Part shown: positions 895 through 10,690 of the stretch, one piece after another | Numbering within the stretch: position 1 is the stretch's first letter | How the letters are laid out: every line of letters begins with the position of its first letter | Assembly (NCBI RefSeq): GCF_905480005.1 | Contig: NZ_CAJQOO010000060.1 | Location: forward strand, 1-33,611 | Direction: 5' to 3' | DNA: 33,611 bases | Origin: an uncultured Maricaulis sp. | GTDB lineage: Bacteria; Pseudomonadota; Alphaproteobacteria; Caulobacterales; Maricaulaceae | Program-made: the position numbers and the translations under genes | Notes under the pieces: generated by a model | Seen by the model: only the letters and a program-made list of their open reading frames with translations | Database searches by the model: none | Told to the model about the DNA's origin: nothing

Positions 895-1021
895 TGACGC
901 AGGCGTGGGCGGCGTTGCATATCGTATGACCGATTTGTCTGCGAGAAGACGTTCGCTGCCAAGAGTCCGTTAACTAAGGCCTGTCAGGTTGCTGTTGAAT
1001 CAGAACCGCACGGGGCCTGCC

Positions 1022-3808
1022 ATGGACGATCTAATGAGCGAATTCTTGACGGAGACGGCCGAGAGCCTGGATGTCATCGATTCCGAACTGGTGCGCTTCG
1101 AGAATAACCCTGAAGACCGGGCGATCCTCGATAATATTTTCCGTCTCCTGCACACCATCAAGGGAACCTGCGGGTTCCTCGGACTTCCGCGACTGGAAGC
1201 GGTGGCGCATGCCGGCGAAACCCTTCTGGGCAAGTTCCGTGATGGCGAACTGAGCGTTTCACCGCCGATGGTGACGCTGGTCCTGCAGGCGATCGACCAG
1301 ATCAAGGTCGTGCTTGAAGCCCTCGAGAATACCGGCGTTGAACCGGCCGGTGATGACTCCGAACTGATCGGCCGCCTCGAAGACGCCTCGATGGGACGTC
1401 TGCCGGAGCAGGCCGACGAGAACGTGCCGCAGCAGCCGGAAAACTGGGACAGTGACCTGGGCCGCGAACTGCGCCCGGGTGAAGTGTCCCTCGCTGATCT
1501 GGAAGCCGCCTTCAACGGGACCGATCCGGAAGTCGAGACCGGCGCGGAACCGGTCGCCGAGCCGGTCCAGCATATCGGCGTCGGCGAGTTCGACCCGGCC
1601 CTGGGTCGCGAGCTGCGCCCGGGTGAAGTGTCCGCGGCGGAACTTGAAGCCGCTTTCGCCGATGCCGAGCCGGACCCGACTGTCGCGCCACCGACGACCG
1701 AGCTGATCACCAAGGATATGAGTCAGGCCGAAGCCCTCGCGACTGCGATGGCTGAGCTCAAGGGCGGCGATGACGCCGTTGCCGGCGATGACGCCGTTGC
1801 CGGCGAAGGCGGTGTGAAGGTCCAGCAGACTGTGCGCGTCGGTGTCGACGTGCTCGAGGCGCTGATGACCACCGTCTCCGAGCTCGTTCTGACTCGGAAC
1901 CAGCTGATGCAGACCATTCGCGGTCTGGAAGACGAAGAACTCAAAGGTCCGCTCCAGCGCCTGTCCGCCGTGACCGGTGAGCTGCAGGACGGTGTCATGA
2001 AGACCCGCATGCAGCCGATTGGCGATGCCTGGCGCAAGCTGCCGCGGATCATCCGCGACGTCTCCACCGATCTTGGCAAGAAGATCGAACTGGTGATGGA
2101 AGGCAATGAGACCGAGCTCGACCGTCAGGTCCTCGAACTCATCAAGGATCCGCTCACCCACATGGTCCGCAACTCCGCTGACCATGGCCTGGAAATGCCG
2201 GCTGACCGCGTCAAGGCGGGCAAGGCCGAGAAGGGCACGATCAAGCTTTCCGCCTATCATGAAGGCGGGCACATCATTATTGCCATCTCCGATGATGGCA
2301 TGGGCCTCAACACGGCCCGTATCGGCGAGAAGGCCCTCGAGAAGGGGCTGACCACGCACGAAGAACTCGAGCGGATGCCGGAGCAGCAGATCCACCGCTT
2401 CATCTTCGCCCCGGGTTTCTCGACCGCCGAGAAAGTCACCAACCTGTCCGGCCGCGGCGTCGGCATGGACGTGGTGCGCACCAATATCGAGCAGATCGGC
2501 GGCGTCATCGATGTCACCTCGACCGCCGGCAAGGGGTCACACTTCTCGATCAAGATCCCGCTCACCCTGGCCATCGTGTCGGCGCTCATCGTCGGTTGCG
2601 ACGAGCAGCGTTTCGCCATTCCCCAGCTCGCCGTACGCGAACTGGTGCGTGTCGGCGCCGGGTCCGAGCACACGGTTGAAAACCTCAATGGCGCCCGCGT
2701 CATGCGTCTGCGCGACCGGCTCATGCCGCTGGTCGACCTGCACGATGTGCTGGGTGTCGGCGAAGCCTATAACGGCCAGGAAGACGAGACCGGTTTCGTG
2801 GTCGTCCTCGATGCCGGTGGCCGCAATGTCGGCCTGGTCGTCGACAATGTCCTCGACACCGAAGAGATCGTCGTCAAGCCGCTCTCGGATTCCCTGCGCG
2901 GGGTTCACGCCTATTCCGGTGCCACCATTCTCGGCGATGGTTCGGTCATCATGATCCTCGACCCGAATGGACTGGCCGGCGAGATTGTCACTGCCTTGGA
3001 CGAAGAAGCCTCGATGGAAGCCTCGGCCGCGAAAGCCGCAGAGGCCACAAACACGCAGCGCCTCCTGCTGGTGCGCGCCGGTGGGTCCGAACCGAAAGCG
3101 GTTCCGCTTGCCCTGGTCACGCGTCTGGAAGAATTCAATCCGGACACCATCGAAAGCACGAATGGGCGCCTTGTGGTCCAGTATCGCGGCCGCCTGATGC
3201 CGATCGTGCCGATCGGCTCGGAAATCCGCACGGTGGAAGGTCAGCGCCAGCCGGTCCTGGTCTTTGCCGAGAACCACACCTCCATCGGTCTGGCCGTCGA
3301 CGAGATCGTCGATGTGGTTGAAGAGCGTGTCGACATGCAGATGTCTTCGGACAAGCAGGGCATCATCGGTTCCGCCATCATCAAGGGCAAGGCCACCGAT
3401 GTGGTCGACATCGCCTGGTATCTCGACCAGTCCCGCGCCGGCAATATCCAGCGCAGGACGAGCAATCGCCGCCGCCGCATCCTGCTGGTCGATGCCGACG
3501 CCTTCGCGCGCCGCATGATCGCGCCGCTGCTGGCGGCTGCGGGTTATGACGTGACCCCGACCGGCGGCATGCATGAAGTGCACGCCATTGCCGAGGCCGG
3601 GGAGCAGTTCGACGCCGTGGTCGGTGATCCGACGGCGCTGTCGCGCATTCGCCAGGAGGGCCTGTGGTCGACCCTGCCGACGCTCGCTGTCACCGACTGG
3701 CCGGAAGATACGCAGTCCGAGGGCCTGACGGCCGTGCTGCCGAGATCTGATCGTGGCGCTCTCATCGCCGCACTCGACTCGGTGTCTCAAGAGGAGAAGG
3801 TGGCATGA
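1022..3808 (+). CDS. cheA: chemotaxis histidine kinase CheA with C-terminal degenerate receiver domain
   Basis: CheA autophosphorylates in response to chemoreceptors and phosphorylates CheY and CheB. In the 928-aa product, the P1 Hpt domain covers residues 1-110 with phospho-His44 in LLHTIKGTCGFLG. A low-complexity linker (about 135-265) replaces a recognisable P2 domain and contains a duplicated motif, LGRELRPGEVS, at about 146 and 194. P3 dimerisation follows (about 270-330), then the HATPase P4 with an N box around HMVRNSADHG and a G box in NLSGRGVGMDVV. Two successive CheW-like modules occupy about 515-655 and 680-805. A receiver-like domain fills 818-924 but has Arg in place of the conserved Lys near its end. 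ATG 1022 was chosen because GGGG lies about 8 bp upstream; an in-frame TTG exists at 989. The stop overlaps the cheW start as ATGA, so the two genes are probably translationally coupled. Confidence 0.93.
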   Translation: MDDLMSEFLTETAESLDVIDSELVRFENNPEDRAILDNIFRLLHTIKGTCGFLGLPRLEAVAHAGETLLGKFRDGELSVSPPMVTLVLQAIDQIKVVLEALENTGVEPAGDDSELIGRLEDASMGRLPEQADENVPQQPENWDSDLGRELRPGEVSLADLEAAFNGTDPEVETGAEPVAEPVQHIGVGEFDPALGRELRPGEVSAAELEAAFADAEPDPTVAPPTTELITKDMSQAEALATAMAELKGGDDAVAGDDAVAGEGGVKVQQTVRVGVDVLEALMTTVSELVLTRNQLMQTIRGLEDEELKGPLQRLSAVTGELQDGVMKTRMQPIGDAWRKLPRIIRDVSTDLGKKIELVMEGNETELDRQVLELIKDPLTHMVRNSADHGLEMPADRVKAGKAEKGTIKLSAYHEGGHIIIAISDDGMGLNTARIGEKALEKGLTTHEELERMPEQQIHRFIFAPGFSTAEKVTNLSGRGVGMDVVRTNIEQIGGVIDVTSTAGKGSHFSIKIPLTLAIVSALIVGCDEQRFAIPQLAVRELVRVGAGSEHTVENLNGARVMRLRDRLMPLVDLHDVLGVGEAYNGQEDETGFVVVLDAGGRNVGLVVDNVLDTEEIVVKPLSDSLRGVHAYSGATILGDGSVIMILDPNGLAGEIVTALDEEASMEASAAKAAEATNTQRLLLVRAGGSEPKAVPLALVTRLEEFNPDTIESTNGRLVVQYRGRLMPIVPIGSEIRTVEGQRQPVLVFAENHTSIGLAVDEIVDVVEERVDMQMSSDKQGIIGSAIIKGKATDVVDIAWYLDQSRAGNIQRRTSNRRRRILLVDADAFARRMIAPLLAAAGYDVTPTGGMHEVHAIAEAGEQFDAVVGDPTALSRIRQEGLWSTLPTLAVTDWPEDTQSEGLTAVLPRSDRGALIAALDSVSQEEKVA
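1766..1801 (+). repeat. two perfect 18-bp tandem units within cheA
   Basis: The unit GGCGATGACGCCGTTGCC occurs twice head to tail and encodes GDDAVA-GDDAVA in the CheA linker just before the dimerisation domain. It probably arose by slippage in a flexible linker. It could vary in copy number between strains without breaking the frame. Confidence 0.8.
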
Positions 3809-4290
3809 CCACGACACACGATGACAACTCGGAGCTCAGCGCCGAGTCGATGAATGAATATGTCTCGGTGCGCATTGGTGATCAGCTCTTTGGTGCTCCG
3901 GTCGACGCGATCCGTGAAGTGTTCGCGCCGCAATCGGTGACATCGGTCCCGCTGGCCCCGAATGAAGTGGCCGGCCTGCTCAATCTGCGCGGCCGTATCG
4001 TGACCGCGATTGATGCCCGCCGCCGCCTCGGTTTGCCGCCGCGCGAAGCCGATGATGCGGGAATGGCACTTGGTGTCGAGCGTGGTAGCGAAATTTTTGG
4101 ACTTATCGTGGACAGTGTCGGTGAAGTGCTTCGTCGACCTAGGGCGGAGCTGGAGCCGGTGCCGGCTCATGTCGATCCGACCTGGCGGTCGATGGTCAAG
4201 GGTGTGCACCGTCTGGATAAGGAATTGCTGGCAGTCCTCGACGTCTCGGCCGTTATCGGAACGGCCGGCGCCAAGGCAGAAGCCGCCTAG
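3805..4290 (+). CDS. cheW: chemotaxis coupling protein CheW
   Basis: CheW bridges CheA to the cytoplasmic tips of chemoreceptors. The 161-aa product is a single CheW domain after a short acidic N-terminal tail of about 18 residues. The conserved turn NLRG lies at residues 60-63, followed by IVTAIDARRRLGL, and the C-terminal half carries the typical VDSVGEVL segment. The start ATG overlaps the cheA stop (ATGA). The next gene, cheY, begins 14 bp after the stop with a GGAGG ribosome-binding site in the gap. It is the only stand-alone CheW in the window, although CheA carries two CheW-like modules of its own. Confidence 0.93.
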   Translation: MTTTHDDNSELSAESMNEYVSVRIGDQLFGAPVDAIREVFAPQSVTSVPLAPNEVAGLLNLRGRIVTAIDARRRLGLPPREADDAGMALGVERGSEIFGLIVDSVGEVLRRPRAELEPVPAHVDPTWRSMVKGVHRLDKELLAVLDVSAVIGTAGAKAEAA

Positions 4291-4304
4291 CGGAGGGTGT
4301 TGGG

Positions 4305-4679
4305 ATGAAAATGTGTCTGGTCGTTGACGATTCCCGGGTGATCCGGAAAGTCGCGCGCAAAATTCTCGAAGAACTTCAGTTCGAATGTGTCGAGGCGGGT
4401 GACGGGTCGGAAGCCCTGGAAGCCTGCCGCAAGCAGATGCCGGACGCGATCCTCCTGGACTGGAACATGCCGGTCATGAACGGGCTGGATTTCGTCAAGG
4501 CGCTGCGACGCGAAGAGGGCGGCGATCAGCCGGTCGTCGTTTTTTGCACGACGGAAAACGACATGGCGCACATCACCGAAGCCCTCCGGGCTGGTGCCGA
4601 TGAGTATGTCATGAAGCCGTTTGATGGCGACATCATCGAGTCCAAGTTCCAGCAAACGGGTTTGCTGCGCGCTTCCTGA
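4305..4679 (+). CDS. cheY: single-domain response regulator CheY
   Basis: CheY is phosphorylated by CheA and, in the classical pathway, binds the flagellar switch FliM. The 124-aa product is a stand-alone receiver with all catalytic residues visible: the acidic pair Asp8-Asp9 in VVDDSR, phospho-acceptor Asp52 in LLDWNMP, Thr82 in FCTTEN and Lys104 in MKPFD. A GGAGG motif sits about 10 bp before the start. Alphaproteobacteria often carry several CheYs, so this copy could act as a phosphate sink or on another target rather than directly on the motor. Its place in the che operon supports the CheY name. Confidence 0.9.
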   Translation: MKMCLVVDDSRVIRKVARKILEELQFECVEAGDGSEALEACRKQMPDAILLDWNMPVMNGLDFVKALRREEGGDQPVVVFCTTENDMAHITEALRAGADEYVMKPFDGDIIESKFQQTGLLRAS

Positions 4680-4690
4680 GGGGGTTTCCA

Positions 4691-5887
4691 ATGACGGAAC
4701 TCGCCCATATGGCGTCTCCCGCCCATTCCATCGCCCGGGTCCTCGTGATTGATGACTCGGCCGTCGCCCGCGGTCTCATGACGCGCTGGGTGGAAGAAGA
4801 CACGGATCTCACCCTCGTCGGCGCTGCCGTTGATGGCGAGCAAGGCCTGCGAAAGGCCGAGGAACTCAAGCCCGACCTGATCGTGCTTGATGTCGAAATG
4901 CCGAAAATGGACGGTCTGGCCGCCCTCCCGCTGCTGCTGAAGGCGGTGCCGGGCTGCAAGGTGGTGATGGCCTCGACGCTGACGCGTCGGGGTGGTGAAG
5001 TGACCATTCGCGCGCTCTCCATGGGCGCCGCAGATTATGCCTCCAAGCCCCAGGCTGGCCGTCTCGCCGGCGCCGAGGAATTCCGCCGCGATCTTCTCAC
5101 CAAGCTGAAAGCCCTGGCGCCGCGACCGATTCCGCCGGTCCCGACACAGAACCAGATCGCGCCGGGCGCTCCGGCAGCACCGACCGCGCCGACAGCACCG
5201 ACCGCTCGCACGATCTCCGCGCCGCCGCCGGCTTCAGCGCCAGCGAAAAAGATGCATGCGCCGGTGGCGCAGCCGCCGCAGACCCGTGGCACGCCGCGTC
5301 ATACCGGTCGTCCGGATATCATCGCCATCGGTTCCTCAACCGGCGGGCCCCAGGCTTTGCGCGATGTGATAGCTGCAATTCCGGCTGATGTTCGTGCCCC
5401 GATTGTCATCGCACAGCACATGCCGGCACTGTTCACCAAAATTCTCGCCGAACACCTGACCAAGGCCGGCAAGCTGGTGTGCAAGGAAGCCGAAGACAAT
5501 GAGCGGCTGAAGCCGGGCTGCGTCTATGTCGCGCCGGGTGATTTTCACATGACCATCCGCAAGGACGCGGCGGGCTTCTATGCGGTGCTCGACCAGACAC
5601 CGCCGATCAATTTCTGTCGTCCGGCAGTCGATCCCCTGTTCCAGTCGGTGGCCGAGGTCACGCGCGGAGCAGCCCTGGGCATCATTCTGACGGGCATGGG
5701 CCATGACGGCCGCGAAGGCGCGCGCATGCTGCGCAATGCCGGCGGTACGATTCTGGCCCAGGACGAGGCGACAAGTATCGTCTGGGGTATGCCGGGAGCC
5801 GTGGCGGAAGCCGGCCTGGCCGATGAAATCCTGTCTTTGTCGGAGATAGGTCCGGGCATTGTCCGGCGCGTGAAAGGTGGATTGTAA
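4691..5887 (+). CDS. cheB: chemoreceptor methylesterase/glutamine deamidase CheB
   Basis: CheB removes methyl groups from receptor glutamates and deamidates glutamines, giving adaptation when phosphorylated by CheA. The product is 398 aa. A receiver domain occupies residues 15-135, with Asp67 in VLDVEMPKMDG as the phosphorylation site. An Ala/Pro/Thr-rich linker (about 145-205) contains short APTAPT repeats. The methylesterase domain (about 208-398) has the catalytic triad at Ser216 in GSSTGGP, His243 in AQHMPA and Asp339 in GMGHDGREG. It is paired with cheR, which starts only 2 bp after the cheB stop. The linker is the only part that looks fast-evolving. Confidence 0.95.
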   Translation: MTELAHMASPAHSIARVLVIDDSAVARGLMTRWVEEDTDLTLVGAAVDGEQGLRKAEELKPDLIVLDVEMPKMDGLAALPLLLKAVPGCKVVMASTLTRRGGEVTIRALSMGAADYASKPQAGRLAGAEEFRRDLLTKLKALAPRPIPPVPTQNQIAPGAPAAPTAPTAPTARTISAPPPASAPAKKMHAPVAQPPQTRGTPRHTGRPDIIAIGSSTGGPQALRDVIAAIPADVRAPIVIAQHMPALFTKILAEHLTKAGKLVCKEAEDNERLKPGCVYVAPGDFHMTIRKDAAGFYAVLDQTPPINFCRPAVDPLFQSVAEVTRGAALGIILTGMGHDGREGARMLRNAGGTILAQDEATSIVWGMPGAVAEAGLADEILSLSEIGPGIVRRVKGGL

Positions 5888-5889
5888 TA

Positions 5890-6726
5890 ATGATAAAACA
5901 AGATGACATCCTTTTCGTGGCTGCAGAGGCGTTCAAGCGCTCGGGTCTCGTTTTGTCTGCCGACAAGGGGTATCTGCTGGAAAGCCGTCTGGCGCCGTTG
6001 GCCCGGGCCGAAGGGTATCCGTCGATCGAGGCGCTGATCACAGCTGCCCGTCGCGATCCCGGGGGGCGCCTTCTCTGGTCGATCACGGAAGCGCTTGCGA
6101 CGCACGAAACCTTCTTTTTCCGCGACAACACGCCGTTCGACCTGTTCAAGCAGGATGTCCTGCCGGTCCTCGCCCGTGCCCGCGGCAATAATGGTCAGAT
6201 TCGCATCTGGTGCGCGGCGTGCTCGTCAGGTCAGGAACCCTATTCCCTGGCAATGCTGCTCGAGGAAGAGCGTGCCCGGCTCGGAAATCTGCGCATCGAA
6301 ATCATCGCCACCGACATGGCACCGCGCGTGCTCGAAAAGGCCAAGGCCGGCGTTTACTCGCAGTTCGAGGTTCAGCGGGGCCTGGCCGTGCAGCGCCTGG
6401 TCCAGCATTTCGAGCAACAGGGCGAGCAGTGGCGCGTCAAGCCGAACATTCGCTCCATGGTGACGTTCCAGAAGCAGAACCTGCTCGAGAACTTCTCCCT
6501 CATGGGCACGTTTGATCTGGTATTCTGCCGCAATGTCCTGATCTATTTTGATGCCGACACCAAGAAGAAGGTGCTCGGACGCATCGCCCAGCAGACCGCC
6601 CAGGATGGCTATCTGATAATGGGTGCCGCCGAAACAGTGGTGGGTCTCTCAAGTGATTTCTCGCCGGTTGAAGGGCGCCGTGGTCTTTATGGCCGCGCCG
6701 CAGCCGCAAAATCGGCCGCAGCCTGA
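5890..6726 (+). CDS. cheR: chemoreceptor glutamate methyltransferase CheR
   Basis: CheR methylates receptor glutamates using S-adenosylmethionine and opposes CheB. The product is 278 aa. An N-terminal helical domain covers about 1-80 and ends in THETFFFRD (71-79), which contacts the receptor. The SAM-binding fold has WCAACSSGQEP (107-117), ATDM and the FCRNVLIYF strand (212-220). The C-terminus is a short Ala-rich tail with no extra TPR domain. The gene follows cheB by 2 bp and is the last of the operon, before a strong terminator. No cheD, cheX or chemoreceptor gene is present in the window, so receptors must be encoded elsewhere. Confidence 0.95.
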   Translation: MIKQDDILFVAAEAFKRSGLVLSADKGYLLESRLAPLARAEGYPSIEALITAARRDPGGRLLWSITEALATHETFFFRDNTPFDLFKQDVLPVLARARGNNGQIRIWCAACSSGQEPYSLAMLLEEERARLGNLRIEIIATDMAPRVLEKAKAGVYSQFEVQRGLAVQRLVQHFEQQGEQWRVKPNIRSMVTFQKQNLLENFSLMGTFDLVFCRNVLIYFDADTKKKVLGRIAQQTAQDGYLIMGAAETVVGLSSDFSPVEGRRGLYGRAAAAKSAAA

Positions 6727-7706: not shown

Positions 7707-8402
7707 TCAGGCCGAGGCCTTCTCCTCCACCGGGTCGCGAAGCACATAGCCGCGGCCCCAGACTGTCTCGATATAGTGTTCGCCATTGGTGGCCGCTGCG
7801 AGCTTCTTGCGAAGCTTGCAGATGAAGACGTCGATGATCTTCAGTTCCGGCTCGTCCATGCCGCCATAAAGGTGGTTGAGGAACATTTCCTTGGTGAGCG
7901 TCGTACCCTTGCGAAGGGAGAGCAGCTCGAGCATCTGGTATTCCTTGCCCGTCAGGTGGACGCGCTGGCCTTCAACCTCGACCGTCTTGGCGTCGAGATT
8001 CACGCCGATCGAACCGGTCTTGATGATGGACTGGGAATGCCCCTTGGAGCGACGCACGATGGCATGGATGCGGGCGACCATTTCGTCCTTGTGGAAGGGC
8101 TTGGTCATATAGTCGTCGGCACCACAGCCCAGGCCGCGCACCTTGTTGTCGATGTCGGCATTGCCGGTGAGGATCAGGATCGGGGTATCGACCTTGGCCA
8201 CGCGCAGCGTCTTGAGAACATCAAAGCCCGGCATGTCGGGCAGGTTCAGGTCGAGCAGGATGATGTCGTAATCATACAGCTTGCCCAGGTCGACGCCCTC
8301 TTCGCCGAGGTCGGTGGTGTAGATGTTGAAGCCTTCTGACTTCAGCATCAATTCGATCGACTGGGACGTCGCCCGATCGTCCTCAATAAGAAGAACCCGC
8401 AT
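7707..8402 (-). CDS. ctrA: cell-cycle master response regulator CtrA
   Basis: CtrA is the OmpR-type regulator that, when phosphorylated through CckA-ChpT, activates flagellar, chemotaxis and division genes and in Caulobacter silences the replication origin. The product is 231 aa. The receiver domain (1-120) has Asp8/Asp9, phospho-acceptor Asp51 in [12 protein letters not shown], Thr79 and Lys101 in MTKPFHKDE. The winged-helix DNA-binding domain (about 125-225) includes the strongly conserved [12 protein letters not shown] and [11 protein letters not shown] segments. The C-terminus is EEKASA. In Caulobacter the last residues serve ClpXP recognition and end in two alanines, so the Ser-Ala end is a small difference. 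A GGAGG motif lies 8 bp before the ATG. The gene is divergent from fliI across a 525-bp control region rich in GANTC and TTAA. Confidence 0.96.
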
Positions 8403-8496
8403 TTGGTTCGCCTCCGGTTTTTGCTACGCGGGGCGAATCACTTCTCGCCCGGCCTCATCTCGTGATTAACCTTATTTGGACGCTATGCGGAAACCC

Positions 8497-8510
8497 TTAA
8501 CGAAAGTTAA
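8497..8510. promoter_or_regulatory. CtrA-box-like TTAA-N6-TTAA in the ctrA promoter region
   Basis: TTAA (8497-8500), CGAAAG, TTAA (8507-8510). The consensus CtrA site is TTAA-N7-TTAA, so the spacer is one base short. Its position, about 100 bp upstream of the ctrA start, fits autoregulation. Confidence 0.4.
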
Positions 8511-8580
8511 CTGTGGCTTGACCGGATTTTGGAATCGGCAGCTCGCGATATCCTTGCTGGGAAGCTTGATTCGGATTTCG

Positions 8581-8603
8581 CGTTAACCATTCAGGGGTTA
8601 ACG
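8581..8603. promoter_or_regulatory. perfect inverted repeat CGTTAACC-N7-GGTTAACG
   Basis: The 8-bp arms are at 8581-8588 and 8596-8603. Each arm contains TTAACC, the CtrA half-site, but the two face each other instead of lying in tandem. It may bind CtrA dimers in an unusual geometry or another dimeric regulator. It lies between ctrA and fliI and could serve either gene. Confidence 0.45.
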
Positions 8604-8665
8604 GGCCGGATTTCGCCTGATCCGTGTGCGGTGCCTGCGGATTGATCAAATATGCGCGGTATAAA

Positions 8666-8674
8666 GTATTCACA
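8666..8674 (+). promoter_or_regulatory. DnaA-box-like site (one mismatch)
   Basis: GTATTCACA differs from TTATNCACA only at the first base. It is noted because a perfect box lies 70 bp further on. Confidence 0.3.
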
Positions 8675-8744
8675 GCGGAGGGCCGTTTCTGTCTGTGTTG
8701 ACAGGCAAATCAGCTCAATTTGGCTGAGGAAAACATGGCTCAAC

Positions 8745-8753
8745 TTATCCACA
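8745..8753 (+). promoter_or_regulatory. perfect DnaA box
   Basis: TTATCCACA matches the DnaA consensus TTATNCACA exactly. In Caulobacter, DnaA also acts as a transcription factor for cell-cycle genes. A single perfect 9-mer could occur by chance in a genome, so its meaning here depends on the neighbouring GANTC and TTAA sites. Confidence 0.4.
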
Positions 8754-8773
8754 AGCAATTTTCTTCCAGTCCT

Positions 8774-8813
8774 GACTCCGAAACGGAATCGGAATCCGGA
8801 CAGGTCTAGAATC
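8774..8813. promoter_or_regulatory. four GANTC sites within 40 bp
   Basis: GACTC at 8774 and GAATC at 8786, 8792 and 8809. With roughly one site expected per 300 bp at this base composition, this is a strong local excess. It lies 115-155 bp before fliI and about 370-410 bp before ctrA. It could be a methylation-sensed promoter element or a binding array for a methylation-dependent regulator such as GcrA. Confidence 0.5.
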
Positions 8814-8927
8814 GGTTGGGATCGGGGCTGCAGAAATTGCCGGGTGTTTACGTCGAGGCAACCGACGATACCTAAACTGATCGTGAAGTGGCTTTTGTGC
8901 CACGCTTTGCAAGGCGGGCTGACCCGT

Positions 8928-10274
8928 ATGATGGAAACCCTGATCGATCGCGTCGGGCGCATGGATGACCGCGTTCTTGAAGGGCGCGTCACCGCGCTCA
9001 ACGGACTGCTGGTTGAGGCCGAAGGGCCAAAGGCGGGCTTGTCGCTGGGCGCACACGCGCAGATCGAGACCGGGGACGGGGTCGCGGAATGCGAAGTTGT
9101 CGGTTTCCGTGGCGAGACAGCCTTGATGATGCCCTTCGGTCCGCTTGAAGGCGTGCGCCCCGGTGCCCGGGCTCTCCTGCAGCCGGAAGCCGCGCGGGTT
9201 CGGCCGAGCCGGTCCTGGCTGGGCCGGGTGCTCGATGGTTTCGGACGCCCGCTTGATAATGGCGCGCCGCTGACCGAAGGCGGGACGCCGTATCCGCTCA
9301 AGGGCAATCCGCCCAGCGCCCATGGCCGTGCCCGTCTGGGTGACCGCCTGGACCTGGGCGTGCGAGTGCTCAACGGTTTTGTCCCCATGCGACGGGGCCA
9401 GCGGCTCGGCATTTTTGCCGGGTCGGGTGTTGGCAAATCGGTGCTCATGTCGATGCTGGCGCGCGCCTGCGATGCCGATGTCATCGTCATTGGCCTGATC
9501 GGTGAGCGGGGCCGCGAAGCGCGTGAATTCGTCGATGATGTTCTGGGTCCGGAGGGTCGCAAGCGTTCCGTGGTGATCACCGAGACGTCCGATGCCCCGG
9601 CCCTGGCGCGGCGTCAGGCCGCCCACCTCACCCTGACCACCGCGGAGTATTTCCGCGATCAGGGGCTCGACGTGCTCTGCCTGATGGACAGTGTCACCCG
9701 TTTTGCCCTCGCACAGCGCGAAATTGGCCTCGCCGCTGGCGAACCGCCGACCACGCGCGGATATACGCCGTCCGTATTTGCTGAATTACCACGGCTACTT
9801 GAGCGCGCCGGCCCGGGTCCGGAACGGACCGATGGCGGAAAAACCGGCTCCATTACCGGTCTTTTCACTGTTTTGGTGGATGGTGATGATCATAACGAAC
9901 CCATAGCCGATGCCGTTCGAGGCATCCTGGATGGACACGTGGTCATGAGCCGAGCCATTGCCGAGCGGGGGCGCTACCCTGCGATCGACGTTCTCAAGTC
10001 GGTCAGCCGGACTGCGCCCGAGGTTTATGACGCTGCCGAGCGACCCCTGGTCGCGGAAGCGCGCAAGCATTTGTCGGCCTATGCCGACATGGAAGAATTG
10101 ATCCGTCTGGGTGCCTACACCCAGGGATCCAATCCCGCGGTGGATCGGGCCATAGAGCTCAACGAACCGCTGGAAGCGTTTCTCGGTCAGCAAAAAGACG
10201 ATGCGGCGGACATACCGTCGACTTTCGCAATGCTGTCGGAGATTTTGGGTGGTGGTGAAGGAGTGCGGCAATGA
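8928..10274 (+). CDS. fliI: flagellum-specific ATPase FliI
   Basis: FliI is the hexameric ATPase at the cytoplasmic face of the flagellar export apparatus and, with FliH and FliJ, feeds substrates into the FlhA-FlhB gate. The product is 448 aa, the usual length for the family. The P-loop [11 protein letters not shown] is near residue 165, with the downstream Walker B region around [32 protein letters not shown], typical of FliI/F1-beta relatives. The chosen start is ATG 8928 or the adjacent ATG 8931, behind AAGGCGGG. An open frame continues 92 codons upstream but is not FliI-like. The stop overlaps the fliJ start as ATGA. fliH, its partner, is encoded in the fliF operon on the other strand. 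Confidence 0.95.
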
Positions 10275-10690
10275 CACGCTCACATGAACCTCTGATCCGG
10301 CTTGCCCGGTTCAAAGTGGAAGAATTGCAAAAACAGATGGCCGAGCTTGATCGCTCGCGCGCAGCCCTGATCGGCCAGATCGAGCGCCTGGAAGCGTCTG
10401 TCCCGGAAGAGCAGGCGGCGGCGGCCCAGTCCAAGGAAGGCTATGTCGCTTACGGCTCCTATGCCCAGGCGGTGATCAAGCGGAAGGAAAATATCCGCGC
10501 GTCACTCGATGAGGTCGATGTCCAGGCCAACGCCCTGCGCGACCGGCTGTCGGAAGCCTTCACGGATCTCAAGAAATACGGGCTCCTTGAAGAGCGTCGT
10601 CTCGCCCGGATCGAACAATCGGTGCGCGCCGCCGAACAGGACGAGCTCGACGAGATCGCCCAGATTCGCCACGGGCGCGCGTCACACTGA
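10271..10690 (+). CDS. fliJ: flagellar export chaperone FliJ
   Basis: The 139-aa product is almost wholly helical and charged, with heptad-like Leu spacing over most of its length ([20 protein letters not shown] and following), as expected for the antiparallel coiled coil of FliJ. FliJ sits in the centre of the FliI hexamer and links it to FlhA. Sequence conservation in this family is low. The name rests on length, coiled-coil character and the ATGA overlap with fliI. A perfect 17-bp terminator follows. Confidence 0.85.

Follow-up and report, generated by a model that had tools for sequence, protein, structure and literature searches.

The intergenic region described here comprises 525 bp (8403-8927) and separates divergently arranged genes, ctrA on the minus strand and fliI-fliJ (8928-10690) on the plus strand. 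Positions refer to the window, the whole stretch of 33,611 nucleotides that was analysed. The flanking genes are as follows.

7707-8402, minus strand: ctrA, a response regulator of 231 aa, matching the NCBIfam CtrA equivalog NF045991 at 433.9 bits (cut-off 350)
8928-10274, plus strand: fliI, flagellar export ATPase of 448 aa, matching TIGR03498 (FliI_clade3) at 595 bits (cut-off 587)
10271-10690, plus strand: fliJ, matching Pfam FliJ at 33 bits (cut-off 28.4)

The ctrA product carries the Pfam domains Response_reg and Trans_reg_C. An N-terminal extension of fliI from 8652 was rejected by eye: the best FliI models start within the product read from 8928, and much of the stretch upstream of that start is poorly conserved in the congener alignment, which counts against a long extension. 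A chemotaxis cluster with CheA-, CheW-, CheB- and CheR-like genes (989-6726) lies beside the locus. The ctrA-fliI region has a GC content of 52%, against 63% for the window. A search of Rfam with 8300-9000 gave no match up to E = 1, and a scan for sigma70-like promoters found no promoter-like site in the region. The source genome (G000, 3.07 Mb, fragmented into 189 contigs) encodes GcrA, at 190.9 bits to the Pfam model (cut-off 26.9) and 217.9 bits to the NCBIfam model, below its cut-off of 280. It also encodes a CcrM-like protein, recognised by a search with the RAMA domain alone (67.4 bits, cut-off 35.2). Two congeners, G015 and G009, are assembled as single contigs that start at dnaA; in them ctrA is located at 766 of 3369 kb and 737 of 3142 kb, about 45-47% along the replichore from dnaA if the contigs are circular and the origin is placed by dnaA. 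On these assumptions ctrA lies in the origin-side half of these chromosomes and would therefore be copied before replication is half complete.

The original prediction drew attention to seven GANTC sites, four of them within 40 bp, together with TTAA half-sites, a perfect DnaA box and a near-perfect one, and all of these are present. The GANTC sites begin at 8435, 8532, 8568, 8774, 8786, 8792 and 8809, the last four occupying exactly 40 bp (8774-8813). TTAA occurs five times (8466, 8497, 8507, 8583, 8598), including TTAA-N6-TTAA at 8497-8510 and TTAACCAT at 8583-8590. The perfect DnaA box TTATCCACA lies on the plus strand at 8745-8753 and a box with one mismatch, GTATTCACA, at 8666-8674. Among 5000 dinucleotide shuffles of the region, 0.64% contained at least seven GANTC, 0.06% had four GANTC within 40 bp and 0.7% contained at least one TTATNCACA; at least six TTAA appeared in 1.0%, a threshold one above the five present, so that this figure gives no P for the observed count. 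In 400 kb of congener G015, taken as background, GANTC occurs on average every 746 bp, and a cluster of at least four within 45 bp is seen once, at L187:11875-11917. In 118 intergenic gaps of G015, defined by rough gene calls, GANTC occurs once per 589 bp, which predicts 0.89 sites for a region of 525 bp; none of the 18 gaps that are 350-700 bp long holds more than two, and one gap of 1406 bp holds seven. A single TTWTNCACA has a chance mean of 0.58 in a stretch of this size, and therefore only conservation of the DnaA box counts. The density was originally called exceptional. It is indeed rare in the genome (seven sites against 0.89 expected), but it is not unusual for ctrA: the accessible text of PMC8116508 reports for Caulobacterales as many as six GANTC in the 300 bp that precede the gene, a density like the one seen here.

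The region was aligned across 19 congeners (genus g1), in 13 of which fliI is adjacent to ctrA and in six of which it lies 2.1-2.2 kb away. From their sequence, the conserved islands, with drifting spacers between them, look like binding sites. The elements distinguished are listed below.

8435-8439, no strand assigned: leader-side GANTC, flanked by the CtrA box and the start of ctrA
8463-8516, minus strand: block A, core of the ctrA promoter, comprising TTAACC (8466) and the TTAA-N6-TTAA CtrA box, near-invariant in the 19 congeners
8518-8537, minus strand: P1-like skeleton TTGACC...GAATCG with GANTC 8532
8568-8602, no strand assigned: block B, with GANTC 8568, TTAACCAT and the palindrome GTTAACC-N7-GGTTAAC (8582-8602)
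8643-8669, no strand assigned: block C, AT-rich, TTGATCAAATAT...TATAAAGTAT (ATCAAATAT..TAAAGTAT)
8745-8753, plus strand: block D, DnaA-box consensus
8774-8813, no strand assigned: block E, array of four GANTC whose first 23 bp (8774-8796) form a triple-GANTC cassette
8839-8863, plus strand: block F, fliI-linked element GCCG-N3-GTTTAC-N6-GCAACC

Most of these sites proved to be conserved among the relatives, as counted over the 18 other rows (12 fliI-adjacent, six separated). GANTC 8435 and GANTC 8532, like the three core TTAA, are retained in 12/12 adjacent and 6/6 separated rows, the place of 8532, upstream of the CtrA box, being assigned by alignment. GANTC 8568 is kept in 10/12 and 5/6, TTAA 8583 in 9/12 and 6/6, and TTAA 8598 in 11/12 and 1/6. 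The four distal GANTC are retained in 10, 9, 10 and 8 of the 12 adjacent rows and in 0, 0, 1 and 0 of the six separated ones. Within block E, GANTC words are kept in a mean of 9.25 of 12 rows, against 1.1-1.5 for random words from the same stretch, and none of 5000 random-word draws reached this level in either of two versions of the comparison. GA.TC occurs 57 times in the block E stretch of the 13 rows, against 27 occurrences of the next palindromic word, and in the third site the middle base varies (A, C or G) with GA and TC constant. The 11 species are related to one another, and the conservation counts are therefore not independent.

The ctrA-proximal elements are the most stable part of the region. 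A TTAA pair 10 bp apart, as in block A, also occurs upstream of ctrA in many loci of the family and order, and TTAA-N6-TTAA is the full CtrA motif (PMC4287350, accessible text). The P1-like place reads TTGAC...GAATCG in 19/19 congeners, with one of the three cassette GANTC. The corresponding place in sister genera reads TTGACTC-N8-GAATCGAGTCC in 27/27 rows that were selected for that triple, representing 26 genomes (L062 and L225 are apparently one record). GTTAAC, sought as a CtrA half-site over the P1 -10 element, is present; the scan located no promoter elements there. The distance between blocks A and B is 86 bp in most rows. In block C, AAAGTAT is found in 19/19 rows and TAAAGTAT in 18/19.

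The sequence TTWTCCACA, in the R-box form of the DnaA-box consensus, is found 337-344 bp from the ctrA start in 19/19 congeners (eight TTATCCACA, 11 TTTTCCACA) and persists at that distance where fliI is 2.1-2.2 kb away. The near-perfect second box at 8666 fared differently from the perfect one: it is kept in 1/12 adjacent and 0/6 separated rows, and with just 1/18 other rows retaining it, it was rejected. In the family as a whole, a TTWTNCACA in the 600 bp next to ctrA is not a general trait, being present at 4/17 other family loci and 1/23 order loci (Markov expectation 3.7%); among 80 named records, some of them the same genomes, five have one near ctrA. TTTTCCACA also occurs upstream of ctrA in two other genera, at 352 bp in L024 (G027) and at 298 and 322 bp in L200 (G066). 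In all fliI-adjacent rows but L019 (12 rows), the DnaA box of block D starts 29 bp before block E (L003, for instance, has the cassette GACTC at 369 and the DnaA box at 340), the first E site of L016 being degenerate (GACAC). The C-D, E-F (62-66) and F-ATG (89-93) distances vary slightly in the same rows. The D-E spacing is weak evidence because the A-B distance is equally rigid.

The cassette can be followed beyond the genus. The pattern GACTC-N6-9-GAATC-N0-1-GANTC was found in 12/16 genomes and then in 38/137 genomes of the family, with one match each, against 1/137 for the backwards control. All 38 cassettes are 23 bp long, and the outer GANTC sites are therefore 18 bp apart. By genus, the cassette is present in 11/19 genomes of g1, 14/15 of g5, 5/8 of g8, 1/1 of g13, 6/6 of g14, 1/10 of g19 and none of the others. 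It lies upstream of ctrA in 37/38 cases, in a single orientation relative to the gene (30/31 and 7/7 loci). The lone match elsewhere, at a locus without ctrA (L207; G088, g19), is probably due to chance. The distance to ctrA is 108-121 bp in g5, g8, g13 and g14 and 368-372 bp in g1. In the source genome, block E lies 115 bp from fliI and 372 bp from ctrA, and in g1 it is without the TTGAC and CtrA-box flanks of the sister-genus P1. The distal cassette of G007 (L008) reads GAATCGAGTCCGTCCGC, the same as two g8 ctrA P1 regions (L204, L206). This shared sequence, noticed rather than evaluated against a null, suggests descent from P1 and not independent origin. At least four GANTC within 45 bp upstream of ctrA occur in 11/19 congeners, 4/17 other family loci, 3/23 order loci and 1/80 named records. 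The strict cassette is present in 11/13 congeners with fliI adjacent and in 0/6 separated ones; its absence from 8/19 congeners shows that it is dispensable. In the best ctrA+fliI tree, the clade with kamA is nested among cassette-bearing congeners. Monophyly of the cassette-bearing congeners plus G017 was not rejected (p-AU 0.178), and therefore the tree fixes no number of gains or losses. A literature search covering few subscription journals returned no description of the cassette or of the combination of ctrA, fliI and GANTC. What is new in these observations is how the triple-GANTC cassette is distributed and where it lies.

The region had been proposed to serve ctrA and fliI in common. 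The two genes are adjacent in 13 congeners, but in the other six the ctrA-side and fliI-side elements are split by other DNA. Blocks A, C and D, and B in part, remain with ctrA in these six species, and GTTTAC-N6-GCAA is found within 260 bp of fliI in 6/6. A KamA-like radical SAM ORF lies between the genes in five of the six (tblastn with the L158 ORF); the L158 ORF, the only one scanned, matches NCBIfam TIGR00238 at 108.8 bits, below the cut-off of 199.2. In the remaining species, G003, the intervening ORF is MtfA-like (106.3 bits, below the cut-off of 400). KamA-like ORFs lie between the two genes in genera g5, g15 and g10 as well (L218-L220). The KamA-like ORF (L158-L162, L218-L220) is transcribed toward ctrA and is present or absent among species of one genus. 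On the fliI side, a perfect block F was found solely at fliI, in 6/13 genomes searched; the other 23 matches have two mismatches each, about the level of the backwards control, and one of them (G015) is also at fliI. Block F bears some resemblance to the ftr element of FlbD (CGGCA/TGCCG). It is not claimed as such an element, the accessible text of PMC3096577 giving no consensus for comparison.

Comparison with Caulobacter places the region among known systems. The original prediction assumed that CtrA, CcrM/GcrA and DnaA act there on separate promoters, a premise contradicted by the accessible parts of PMC4287350 and PMC8116508: 135 cell-cycle start sites carry sites for multiple master regulators (PMC4287350), and ctrA P1 requires fork passage and hemimethylation and is regulated by GcrA, with CtrA acting on both P1 and P2 (PMC8116508). 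In C. crescentus, this hemimethylation-dependent P1 is bound by GcrA (PMC8116508, PMC3667746), whose binding is methylation-dependent; a single GAnTC belongs to ctrAP1, and a second one follows the P2 start (PMC3667746). As far as the available text of these sources goes, the activity of a ctrAP1 reporter did not change when its GAnTC was mutated (PMC3667746), a strain whose ctrA promoter cannot be methylated had no abnormal phenotype (PMC3973325), methylation state and ctrA transcription are the subject of PMC3973325 and PMC2217572, and control of ctrA by DnaA was already proposed from motifs in several alphaproteobacteria (PMC2877005). The present locus resembles the C. crescentus P1/P2 system in its CtrA box, in a GANTC at the P1 place and another nearer the gene upstream of ctrA, in the CcrM-like and GcrA genes, and in the origin-side location of ctrA (two single-contig congeners). 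It differs in its number of GANTC (seven in 525 bp), in its distal triple-GANTC cassette and in a DnaA box that is conserved about 340 bp upstream of the gene. The C. crescentus mipZ and podJ promoters are likewise reported to have a DnaA motif near GANTC, with two juxtaposed GAnTC at mipZ (PMC4287350, PMC3667746, accessible parts). Here, in contrast, the gene is another one, and three to four GANTC, the triple with its outer two 18 bp apart, stand 29 bp from one DnaA box. The accessible text of PMC8116508 on GANTC-rich ctrA regions of Caulobacterales does not describe fixed spacing, a cassette occurring once per genome or its altered place in g1.

The region controlling ctrA is real, conserved and densely packed with sites, and it is of the Caulobacter kind. 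Its sequence organisation is best explained, with a modest lean towards being right, by two back-to-back modules, a Caulobacter-type ctrA control region with a relocated methylation cassette and a promoter of its own for fliI. From 8403 to about 8813, the ctrA module would consist of a P2-like CtrA autoregulation box, a P1-like GANTC, the leader GANTC, the distal DnaA box and, in 11/19 congeners, including the source genome, the multi-GANTC array. The cassette, carried at ctrA P1 by other genera, has probably been moved or duplicated in g1 to a place about 250 bp further upstream. CcrM would methylate the GANTC sites and fork passage would leave them hemimethylated; GcrA with sigma70 would read this state and drive ctrA, after which CtrA~P would take over through its own box, and DnaA may tune the control of ctrA. 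The fliI module (about 8832-8927) would be a separate promoter. Chance clustering in AT-richer intergenic DNA, retained by recent ancestry, is a very improbable account of the sites. It would fit the lower GC content of the region, and it accounts for the second DnaA box, but it is largely refuted by site words conserved far above their neighbours and by the recurrence of the cassette at ctrA in other genera.

The absence of the cassette from all six separated congeners could mean that it serves fliI, in which case the D-E unit would control fliI or both genes, with DnaA and hemimethylated GANTC timing the expression of flagellar export. The contrast between fliI-adjacent and separated congeners, the adjoining of block E to block F, and a GANTC that precedes fliI by 41-51 bp in 6/6 separated species are consistent with such a role. 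It is nevertheless rather unlikely, as other genera have the cassette at the ctrA P1 place even where a KamA-like gene separates fliI (G022: L177, L218), TTWTCCACA stays by ctrA in the separated species, and the D-E spacing is constant in rows where E-F and F-ATG vary. It is less likely still that D and E are not promoter parts and serve DnaA and CcrM/GcrA as a local sink or marker, or help to organise the chromosome; a dense array with a DnaA box and without a recognisable sigma70 promoter nearby would suit this function, but the cassette is tied to ctrA in five genera, there is a single DnaA box and not all congeners have the cassette.

A more specific and tentative possibility is that the cassette acts as a single-copy fork sensor for ctrA in one Maricaulaceae-like clade, and that in g1 it has moved from P1 and become phased with the DnaA box. 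If this is true, initiation and fork passage would be read at one composite site upstream of ctrA. The ctrA P1 promoter is the textbook example of how the replication fork can time a gene through methylation, and the Caulobacter version has one GANTC according to the accessible text of PMC3667746. A clade with three to four GANTC at fixed spacing, in two alternative places, and with congeners free of the cassette would provide natural variants for studying site number, spacing and the action of DnaA on ctrA.
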